Shown here piece after piece: positions 51,863 to 58,862 of a DNA stretch of 64,000 bases. The translations under genes and the position numbers were made by a program. The notes beneath the pieces were generated by a model. It was not told the origin of the DNA. It saw only the letters and a list, made by a program, of their open reading frames with translations, and ran no database searches. This DNA is from Blastococcus saxobsidens DD2 (GTDB taxonomy: Bacteria > Actinomycetota > Actinomycetes > Mycobacteriales > Geodermatophilaceae), in contig NC_016943.1 of assembly GCF_000284015.1 (NCBI RefSeq), forward strand, positions 1,467,541 to 1,531,540, in the 5' to 3' direction. Every line of letters starts with the position of its first letter. Position 1 is the first letter of the stretch.

Positions 51863-51926
51863 CGCTGATTGACAGCGTGGGCGACGGAGCGCCGTGCCAG
51901 ACTGAGGGAGAGCCGCGACCACGGCT

Positions 51927-51970
51927 CCCGGACGAGCGGTGCCGTACCCGGTGTGCGACAAGACGGCGCC
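51927..51970 (+). promoter_or_regulatory. guanidine-III (ykkC-III) riboswitch
   Basis: The sequence contains, in order, the conserved elements of this class: CCGGACGAG (51928-51936), GTGCCGTACCCGG (51939-51951) and ACAAGACGGCGC (51958-51969). GTGCCGT pairs with ACGGCGC (one G-T pair) and CCGG with CCGG, as in the known pseudoknot. The ribosome site AGAGGAG (51971-51977) follows at once. Binding of guanidinium should control access to it and switch on the exporter gene. Confidence 0.88.
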
Positions 51971-51983
51971 AGAGGAGCCCGCG

Positions 51984-54205: not shown

Positions 54206-55213
<1,008 letters not shown>

Positions 55214-55655: not shown

Positions 55656-55751
55656 GGAGGCGTCAGGGTGTCTGGTGGCCCCCGCGGCCTCTAAAGCCGA
55701 CGTGGCCGAGTAGCTCGGTCAGGCGGGTTCGATTCCCGTCCGCCTCCGCCA
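55656..55751 (+). tRNA. selC: tRNA-Sec with amber anticodon CTA
   Basis: The 96-nt RNA has selenocysteine-tRNA features. The acceptor GGAGGCG(T) (55656-55663) pairs with CCGCCTCC (55740-55747; the eighth pair is T/C), the discriminator is G and CCA is encoded. The D-loop TCTGGTGG matches the bacterial Sec type, on a D-stem with one T/C mismatch. A 7-bp long variable arm is formed by GGCCGAG/CTCGGTC around TAG (55704-55720). The T-arm is GCGGG-TTCGATT-CCCGT. The anticodon stem GGC/GCC region encloses loop CTCTAAA (55689-55695): U33, then CTA at 55691-55693. It should read UAG, not UGA. selA starts 28 bases downstream. Confidence 0.92.
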
Positions 55752-55779: not shown

Positions 55780-57105
55780 ATGACTCAGGACCCGCACGGC
55801 ACCGACCCGCGCCGCCAGGTGCCGCGCACCGACACGCTGCTCGCCGACCTCCGCCTCGCCGGCGCCGGTGAGCGCCTGGGCCGCGGGCTGGTGAAGGACG
55901 CCGTCCAGCGGGTGCAGCAGCGGGTGCGGGCCGGTGAGGTGGCTCCGGACGCAGCGGTCGACGCGGTCCTGGCCGAGCTGCCGGCGACGGCGTCGAGCCT
56001 CCGCCCGGTGCTGAACGCGACCGGCGTCATCGTGCACACCAACCTCGGTCGGGCTCCGCTGTCGGCGGCCGCGGTGGAGGCGATCACCGCCGCCGCCGGG
56101 ACGACCGACGTCGAGCTCGACCTCACCACCGGCCGTCGTGGGCCCCGCGGAGCGGCGGCGATCGCCGCGCTGCTCGAGGCCGTGCCCGCCGCCGAGGCGG
56201 CGATCGTGGTGAACAACTGCGCGTCCGCCCTCGCGCTCGTCGCCACGGCCCTCGGTCAGGGCCGGGAGCTGGTGCTGGCCCGCGGCGAGCTGGTGGAGAT
56301 CGGTGACGGCTTCCGCATCCCGGAGCTGCTGGAGGCCACGGGCGCGCGGCTGCGCGAGGTCGGCACGACCAACCGGGTGACCGTCGACGACTACCGCGGC
56401 GCCCTGGGCCCGGAGACCGGCGCGGTGCTCAAGGTCCACCCGTCGAACTTCGTGGTGCGCGGCTTCACCCGGGCGGTCGAGGTGGCCGAGCTGGCCGGCG
56501 CACTCGGCGGCGTCCCCCTGGTGGCCGACGTCGGCTCGGGGCTCCTCCGCCCGCACCCCCTGCTACCCGAGGAACCGGACCTGCAGACCACGCTGGCCGC
56601 CGGCGCCGACCTGGTGCTGGCGAGCGGGGACAAGCTGCTGGGCGGCCCGCAGGCGGGGCTGGTCCTCGGCCGGGCCGACCTGGTGCAGCGGTTGCGCCGG
56701 CACCCGCTGTACCGGGCGCTGCGGGTGGACAAGACGACGCTCGCCGCCCTGGAGGCCACCCTGCGCGGCCCGCTCCCGCCGGTGCAGCAGATGCTCGCCG
56801 CCGACGTGGACGGCCTGCGCGCCCGGGCCCGTGCACTGGCCGACCGGCTGTCCGGCGCCGGGGTGGACGCCGTCGCGGTCGACGCGGATTCGCGGGTCGG
56901 CGGGGGAGGGGCGCCCGAGCACCCGCTGCCCGGCGCCGCGGTCTCCCTGCCGGCGTCGTTCGCCGAGCCGCTGCGCCGGGGCGCACGACCGGTCGTCGGC
57001 TACCTCGAGGACGACCGGACGCTGCTGAACCTGCGCAGCGTCCCGTCCGCCGCCGACGCCGAGCTGGCTGCCGCGGTGCTGGAGGTGGCCCGCCGGTGGA
57101 CGTGA
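55780..57105 (+). CDS. selA: L-seryl-tRNA(Sec) selenium transferase (selenocysteine synthase)
   Basis: A 441-residue PLP enzyme that converts Ser-tRNA-Sec to Sec-tRNA-Sec with selenophosphate. An N-terminal tRNA-recognition domain precedes the aminotransferase-like core: LNATGVIVHTNLGRAPLSA (~residue 78), VVNNCASALALVATAL, VADVGSGLL, and the PLP lysine K285 in LASGDKLLGGPQAG. The length is slightly short of E. coli SelA (463). It recognises the whole body of tRNA-Sec rather than the anticodon, which explains why an anticodon change is tolerated. selB follows with a 10-base overlap. Confidence 0.95.
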   Translation: MTQDPHGTDPRRQVPRTDTLLADLRLAGAGERLGRGLVKDAVQRVQQRVRAGEVAPDAAVDAVLAELPATASSLRPVLNATGVIVHTNLGRAPLSAAAVEAITAAAGTTDVELDLTTGRRGPRGAAAIAALLEAVPAAEAAIVVNNCASALALVATALGQGRELVLARGELVEIGDGFRIPELLEATGARLREVGTTNRVTVDDYRGALGPETGAVLKVHPSNFVVRGFTRAVEVAELAGALGGVPLVADVGSGLLRPHPLLPEEPDLQTTLAAGADLVLASGDKLLGGPQAGLVLGRADLVQRLRRHPLYRALRVDKTTLAALEATLRGPLPPVQQMLAADVDGLRARARALADRLSGAGVDAVAVDADSRVGGGGAPEHPLPGAAVSLPASFAEPLRRGARPVVGYLEDDRTLLNLRSVPSAADAELAAAVLEVARRWT

Positions 57106-58862
57106 CCCCCGTCGGTATGGACGTCGTCGCGACCGCGGGTCACGTCGACCACGGCAAGTCGGCGCTGGTGCGCGCCCTCACCGGCATGGAGCCCGACCGC
57201 TGGGCCGAGGAGCGCCGCCGGGGCCTCACCATCGACCTCGGTTTCGCCTGGACGACGCTGCCCTCGGGCCGGCGGCTGGCCGTCGTGGACGTGCCGGGTC
57301 ACGAGCGGTTCGTCGGCAACATGCTGGCCGGCGTGGGCTCGGTGCCCGCCGCGCTGGTCGTCGTCGCCGCCGACGACGGCTGGTCGGCGCAGACCGCCGA
57401 GCACGTCGCCGTCCTCGACGCACTCGGCGTGCGGCACGCACTGCTGGCCGTCACCAAGTCCGACCTCGCCGACCCCGCCCCGGTGCTCGACGACGTGCGC
57501 GAGCGGCTGGCCGCGACGTCGATGGGCGAGGTGCCGGGGGTGGCGGTGAGCGCGGTGACCGGCGCGGGGCTGCCGGAGGTCGCCGCAGCCCTGGAGGCGC
57601 TGCTCTCCGGGTTGCCCGCGCCGGACCACGAGGCGCCGGTCCGGCTGTGGATCGACCGTGCCTTCACGATCAAGGGAGCCGGGACGGTGGTCACCGGCAC
57701 CCTCGCCGCCGGGACGGTGGCGCCCGGGGACCGGTTCCTGCTGGGCGGCCGGGAGGTGACCGTGCGGGGCGTGCAGTCGCTCGGCGAGCCGGTCGAGCGG
57801 GCCGCGGCCACCGCGCGCGTGGCGCTGAACCTCCGCGGGGTCGCGGTGGAGGACCTCTCGCGCGGCGACGCCCTGCTCACCCCCGGGGCGTTCCGGCTCA
57901 CCGACGTCGTGGACGTGACCCTCGCTGCAGAGCCCGACGAGCGGCTGCCCACCGAGCCGGTGGTGCACGTGGGGTCCGCGACGGTCGGTGCCCGGCTCCG
58001 GCCGCTGGAGGGCGCGGCCGTGCGGCTGCGGCTGAACGCGCCGCTCCCGCTGAGGGTGGGCGATCGGTTGCTGCTGCGCGATCCGGGTTCCCGGCGGGTG
58101 CTGGGTGCCGACGTGCGCGACGTCGATCCGCCCGGGCTGCGCCGCCGGGGCGCGGCCCGTCAGCGCGCCGCGGAACTCGCGGCCCAGCCCGGGGGAACCG
58201 CGGGGGCGGCCGCCGACCTGGCCCGCCGGCGGATCGTGCGCGCCGCGGACTTCGCGGCCATGGGCTGGCCGGTGCCCGTGGGCGCCACCCCCGCCGGGCC
58301 GTGGCTGCTCGCCGCCGGGCTGGCCGACGAGCTGGCGGCCCGGGTGCCCGACGTCGTCAGCCGCTACCGGAGGCTGCGCCCGCTGGAGCCGGGACCACCG
58401 GCGGAGGTGGTGCGCCGGGCGCTCGACCTGCCCGACGCCGATCTGGTGCCCGCCCTCGTCCGGGCACCGCTGGTGCTGCGCGAGGGCCGGGTCGTCGACG
58501 GCGCCGCGGACCTCCCGCCGGCGGTGCAGCGGGCGGTCGACGACGTGCGCGCCCGCCTCGCGGCCGACCCGTTCGCGGCGCCCGAGGCCCCCGACCTGGC
58601 GGCCGCCGGGCTCGGCGTCCGGGAACTGGCCGCGGCCGTCCGCAGCGGTCAGCTGGTGCGCGTCGGGGAGCAGGTCTACCTGGCGCCGGGGGTCGCCGAC
58701 GTGGCGCGGGCCCGGCTGGCCTCGGTCGCGCAGCCCTTCACCCTCAGCCAGGCCCGGCAGGCGTGGGGAACCAGCCGCCGGGTCGCCGTCCCGCTCATGG
58801 AGTGGCTCGACGCCCGGGGCGTCACCGTCCGGTTGCCCGACAACACCCGCCGGCTGCGGTAG
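57096..58862 (+). CDS. selB: selenocysteine-specific elongation factor SelB
   Basis: A 588-residue EF-Tu-like GTPase that delivers Sec-tRNA-Sec to a recoded codon next to an mRNA SECIS hairpin. G1 is ATAGHVDHGKSALVRALTG (~residue 15), G3 DVPGHERFVGNMLAGV and G4 VTKSDLADP. Domains II-III precede C-terminal winged helices (~380-588, ending PLMEWLDARGVTVRLPDNTR) that bind the SECIS. The GTG at 57096 has GGAGGTGG 8 bases upstream; the ATG at 57117 lacks a site. It terminates in TAG, the very codon its tRNA should decode. Confidence 0.93.
   Translation: MDVTPVGMDVVATAGHVDHGKSALVRALTGMEPDRWAEERRRGLTIDLGFAWTTLPSGRRLAVVDVPGHERFVGNMLAGVGSVPAALVVVAADDGWSAQTAEHVAVLDALGVRHALLAVTKSDLADPAPVLDDVRERLAATSMGEVPGVAVSAVTGAGLPEVAAALEALLSGLPAPDHEAPVRLWIDRAFTIKGAGTVVTGTLAAGTVAPGDRFLLGGREVTVRGVQSLGEPVERAAATARVALNLRGVAVEDLSRGDALLTPGAFRLTDVVDVTLAAEPDERLPTEPVVHVGSATVGARLRPLEGAAVRLRLNAPLPLRVGDRLLLRDPGSRRVLGADVRDVDPPGLRRRGAARQRAAELAAQPGGTAGAAADLARRRIVRAADFAAMGWPVPVGATPAGPWLLAAGLADELAARVPDVVSRYRRLRPLEPGPPAEVVRRALDLPDADLVPALVRAPLVLREGRVVDGAADLPPAVQRAVDDVRARLAADPFAAPEAPDLAAAGLGVRELAAAVRSGQLVRVGEQVYLAPGVADVARARLASVAQPFTLSQARQAWGTSRRVAVPLMEWLDARGVTVRLPDNTRRLR

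Follow-up and report, generated by a model that had tools for sequence, protein, structure and literature searches.

A selenocysteine tRNA with anticodon CUA and probable use of selected UAG codons for selenocysteine in Blastococcus saxobsidens DD2

The analysed window, a stretch of 64,000 nucleotides from the genome of Blastococcus saxobsidens DD2, harbours a tRNA-Sec gene with anticodon CUA on the forward strand at 55656-55751. ARAGORN located a tRNA at exactly these positions, with CTA at position 36 of the gene. The tRNA-Sec model of Rfam (RF01852) matched 55656-55747 with 65.3 bits (gathering threshold 47, E 1.1e-11), covering model positions 1-91 of 91. On direct reading, the anticodon loop C-T-C-T-A-A-A extends from 55689 to 55695 and contains the anticodon CTA, which reads UAG, at 55691-55693 (+); the discriminator G73 lies at 55748 and the encoded CCA at 55749-55751. 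Discriminator G73 and the long variable arm, as seen from direct reading and the model alignment, are those of a tRNA-Sec, and the acceptor, the arms and the CCA are all intact. The preliminary description of this DNA, which had named a tRNA with a long variable arm, G73, CCA and the loop CTCTAAA at this site, is borne out by all three approaches, and the covariance model recognises the gene from end to end.

The tRNA gene is flanked by the divergently oriented selD upstream and by selA-selB downstream, so that selA, selB and selD are all present. The gene selD (selenide, water dikinase) is located at about 54206-55210 (-), its start codon being approximate, and was identified by TIGR00476 (388.7 bits) and the Pfam domains AIRS and AIRS_C. 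The open reading frame of selA (L-seryl-tRNA(Sec) selenium transferase; TIGR00474, 418.3 bits; PF03841) spans 55780-57105 (+). It is followed by the open reading frame of selB at 57096-58862 (+), encoding the Sec-specific elongation factor (TIGR00475, 293.1 bits; PF00009) with a C-terminal winged-helix domain (PF09107, SelB-wing_3). The TIGR00474 and TIGR00475 matches also confirm the earlier placement of the tRNA directly upstream of selA-selB. The window additionally contains a Guanidine-III riboswitch at 51907-51972 (+), found with 64 bits in Rfam.

The order selD, tRNA-Sec, selA, selB is shared with plasmid pYA7-1a of Arthrobacter and plasmid 17 of Tsukamurella. Both differ from the locus described here in having the anticodon UCA, UGA as the Sec codon and an fdh operon directly beside selD. 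The formate dehydrogenases (FDHs) encoded on these plasmids are 61-64% identical to those of strain DD2; at the same column their genes carry TGA, after which comes a hairpin of the same shape and in the same place as the fdhA hairpin described below.

The genome of strain DD2 is complete and consists of one contig of 4,875,340 bases. A whole-genome Rfam search yielded a single true tRNA-Sec gene. The weaker matches were considered as candidates for a second one and were rejected, as they are tRNA-Ser, tRNA-Tyr and tRNA-Leu genes; a tRNA-Sec with anticodon TCA is therefore absent from the whole genome.

Selenoprotein genes were compiled from three family searches (FDH, UGSC and AhpC-TSA) in which stop codons were read through. 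Five genes with a single in-frame TAG at the Sec position were obtained; this number may be incomplete because the genome was searched family by family. Two are copies of fdhA (C1:316372-319422 and C1:2909385-2912414), each containing a single in-frame TAG, in the context ENQARI-TAG-HSSTVPGLG. Two encode UGSC proteins, at C1:2694250-2694750 (ALAD-TAG-GSC) and at C1:3436124-3436612 (AVGD-TAG-GSC), the latter being fused to an upstream thioredoxin-reductase-like Pyr_redox_2 domain (pyridine nucleotide-disulphide oxidoreductase). The fifth, an AhpC-like peroxiredoxin gene at C1:130325-130606, carries TAG at the position of the reactive cysteine (GDW-TAG-PYC). Together with CUA on the only tRNA-Sec, these five genes support the earlier proposal that selected UAG codons are used for selenocysteine.

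TGA was found at the Sec column in none of the FDH, UGSC and AhpC-TSA matches of the genome, so the occurrence that would have spoken against this proposal is not seen in the selenoprotein genes found. This result, along with the presence of CUA as the only tRNA-Sec anticodon, also makes it very unlikely that some UGA codons are read as selenocysteine in addition to UAG, whether through wobble, near-cognate decoding or otherwise, even though one relative (G059, see below) appears to use both codons with one tRNA for each.

Downstream of the TAG codon, fdhA can form a hairpin of 7 pairs; its loop, GGUCU, occupies bases 22-26 if numbering starts with the first codon base. In Escherichia coli, the SECIS element of fdhF has a GGUCU loop at the same distance. 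In an alignment of 19 distinct fdhA sequences, including two from organisms that use UGA, pairing was found in 99.2% of the cells. One pair alternates between GC and CG, and another varies among CG, GU, GC and UA. The number of double-changed cells was 17, compared to 5.6 in shuffled alignments, and none of 500 shuffles reached as high a value. Sliding the partner by 1-3 columns lowered the pairing to 32-57%. As read from the alignment, the co-varying columns are synonymous third codon positions. The UGSC hairpin has 8 pairs and displays compensatory changes similar to those of fdhA. The folding energies of the single hairpins were not clearly better than those of shuffled sequences (z values of -0.5 and -0.9, and +0.2 for AhpC), and the case for SECIS elements is therefore based on covariation in fdhA and UGSC, where compensatory changes argue for such a hairpin after the Sec codon. 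For the AhpC hairpin, the evidence is weak.

UAG also remains in use as a terminator. Stop codons were sampled for 57 genes, 38 in the window and 19 in four other loci, with a simple rule based on third-position GC content; 49 end in TGA, 7 in TAG and 1 in TAA. The genes of UGSC1 and of AhpC contain TAG internally at the Sec position and again as the terminal stop. Since UAG carries both meanings within single genes, a local signal is needed to tell them apart. Termination at UAG in 7 of the 57 genes and in two selenoprotein genes points to hairpin-directed recoding rather than global reassignment, and the restriction to "selected" UAG codons in the preliminary description was correctly worded.

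The same observation bears on the nature of the tRNA. ARAGORN labels it 'tRNA-Pyl' because its anticodon is CTA; if it were a tRNA for pyrrolysine or an amber suppressor of general scope, every UAG would be read as an amino acid without any hairpin. A general suppressor, however, would extend the genes ending in UAG, among them those of the two selenoproteins. Moreover, the Rfam match is to tRNA-Sec and not to tRNA-Pyl, the gene is placed between selD and selA-selB, and neither pylS nor pylBCD was found among its neighbour genes. We regard this explanation as extremely unlikely and retain the assignment as tRNA-Sec.

In the family Geodermatophilaceae, a tRNA-Sec with CTA was found in 104 of 115 genomes, as counted by hand from tRNA pattern matches, and is spread over nine genera. 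Only TCA was present in 7 of the 115 genomes, which belong to three further genera (g5, g6 and g7), and the remaining 4, which are incomplete, had no tRNA-Sec. The assemblies of g5, g6 and g7 are all fragmented and probably are metagenome-assembled genomes (MAGs). Among the matches listed, FDHs spanning the Sec column have one TAG each throughout the family. The 98 UGSC matches comprise 74 with one TAG and 24 without a stop (counted by hand); none has TGA. Because 104 of the 115 genomes share this CTA loop, a base-calling error can in practice be dismissed. The rarity of the UAG-Sec state is all that was found in favour of an erroneous anticodon or a decayed tRNA accompanied by TAG-containing pseudogenes, a practically negligible explanation that the family survey refutes for practical purposes, given the shared loop, a tRNA gene without defects in acceptor, arms or CCA, a TAG column that is the same family-wide in fdhA and in UGSC and is followed by long intact frames, and the compensatory changes in the hairpins of both genes.

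Two further observations from the survey concern single genomes. One genome contains two complete sel loci (selD, tRNA-Sec CUA, selA, selB) on a single contig (G110:C255), at 155000-168000 and 214000-227000, which are about 59 kb apart. In another, fdhA (G080:C12:812469-814946) lacks the stretch around the Sec codon and has a frame break there, reflecting either a dead gene or an assembly error.

The survey allows the codon switch to be placed, as UCA occurs with the same locus in three other genera of the family and is also found in other families of the order. In g6 and g7, selA adjoins the tRNA (63-68% identity), and selB and selD belong to the same loci wherever the contigs are long enough to show them. 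No FDH was detected in g5-g7 at E 1e-60, their UGSC matches are free of any stop, and the AhpC-TSA search gave one sub-threshold match with TGA. As no TGA selenoprotein was found there, it is the tRNA that points to UGA use in these three genera. In the other families of the order, the tRNA-Sec genes among the matches listed all have TCA with one exception. In this genome (G233), CTA and TCA occur on different contigs (C194:787-845 and C119:8061-8119), a pair that is probably due to binning contamination.

Four CTA loci were placed in trees of SelA and of SelB, each built from a small number of sequences, and form one clade in both (support 100/100). The simplest reading is that CUA replaced UCA once, in the common ancestor of the nine genera. 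In all CUA tRNAs the anticodon stem ends with a C-G pair, and in most UCA tRNAs with U-A; C-G is not exclusive to CUA, since one UCA tRNA of Streptomyces has it as well.

A pattern scan of GTDB contigs for amber tRNA-Sec genes outside the family gave two matches, neither of which is a tRNA-Sec; the pattern omitted the family's own loop context and would miss tRNAs sharing that loop. A tRNA with an amber anticodon in an Erysipelotrichaceae MAG (L117:2782-2868, -) is not a tRNA-Sec according to Rfam and possibly represents a UAG-decoding tRNA. The other match, in Paracoccus, arose by chance.

Taken together, the sequence evidence for selenocysteine at selected UAG codons is very strong, and the sole tRNA-Sec of the genome almost certainly reads UAG, with selenocysteine predicted to be inserted where a hairpin marks the codon. 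In the bacterial pathway, seryl-tRNA synthetase charges tRNA-Sec with serine, which SelA converts to selenocysteine on the tRNA with selenophosphate supplied by SelD. In strain DD2, seryl-tRNA synthetase would thus load tRNA-Sec(CUA) with serine, and SelA would turn the serine into selenocysteine using selenophosphate made by SelD. SelB would then deliver the charged tRNA to those UAG codons that have a SECIS hairpin about 12 bases downstream, while translation would still end at UAG codons lacking it. Competition at the Sec codon would presumably come from release factor 1 in place of release factor 2. In evolutionary terms, the survey suggests ancestors with the same sel locus and a UCA-reading tRNA, in which the tRNA would have acquired a new anticodon and a handful of genes new Sec codons.

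Mukai and colleagues reportedly described UAG-directed selenocysteine in Geodermatophilus and Blastococcus in 2016 (Angew Chem). The same work is said to have demonstrated Sec at UAG in relatives by labelling or mass spectrometry. That system and the one described here have tRNA-Sec(CUA) and TAG in FDH and UGSC in common, and no difference was noted in the window. PMC5330540 credits the FDH and UGSC selenoproteins to Mukai et al. (2016). A CUA tRNA-Sec in three Geodermatophilaceae genomes and a Sec-TAG AhpC from Blastococcus saxobsidens DD2 itself were published subsequently (Santesmasses et al. 2017, PMC5330540), and the AhpC-like gene found here likewise has an in-frame TAG at the position of the reactive cysteine. 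UAG, UAA and ten sense codons are listed as Sec codons in nature (2023 review, PMC10778597).

Because UAG-Sec was published in 2016 and the TAG-containing AhpC of DD2 in 2017, the finding as such is considered already known for the family, and probably also for strain DD2. The UAG-Sec reading of the preliminary description stands, whereas its account gave too little weight to prior publication (PMC5330540). New here, relative to the openly accessible literature compared, are the count across the family, the sister genera with UCA and the genome of G059.

G059 belongs to a genus of the family (g3) and has a native tRNA-Sec(CUA) on contig C11, beside selD, selA and selB, as well as FDH and UGSC genes with TAG and one SelB. 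A second tRNA-Sec, with anticodon UCA, is located at C17:1173-1263; its score of 81.8 bits is the best in the family. At a distance of 316 bases, an AhpD-like open reading frame (carboxymuconolactone decarboxylase/AhpD type; C17:1579-2157) contains an in-frame TGA (LNRCFY-TGA-MESH) at a position occupied by cysteine in homologues. The TGA is followed by a hairpin of 7 pairs, whose stability, taken by itself, does not exceed that of shuffled sequences. The segment with the UCA tRNA has a GC content of 60%, compared to 75-78% in its surroundings, and transposase-like genes are found nearby. Contig C17 is considered native to G059, since it bears the only dxs copy of the genome (84-89% identity to relatives in CUA genera) and, between about 39.6 and 68.9 kb, shows collinearity with G048, a complete genome. 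The sequence of its first 39 kb looks like an accessory island. A search of 398 further genomes from the order at E 1e-30 revealed no relative of the AhpD-like gene, and no close relative of the segment was found in viral contigs or plasmids.

G059 is hence put forward as a candidate for a genome that naturally uses two Sec codons in the same cell. We tentatively consider that it may serve its own selenoproteins through UAG and tRNA-Sec(CUA) and a UGA-containing AhpD-like selenoprotein through a horizontally acquired tRNA-Sec(UCA), with one SelB for both. If confirmed, G059 would be a natural test of one SelB serving two Sec codons per cell.

For genome annotation, treating UAG as a stop truncates such genes in more than 100 species. 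The change from one stop codon to another for the 21st amino acid constitutes a natural experiment in the evolution of the genetic code.
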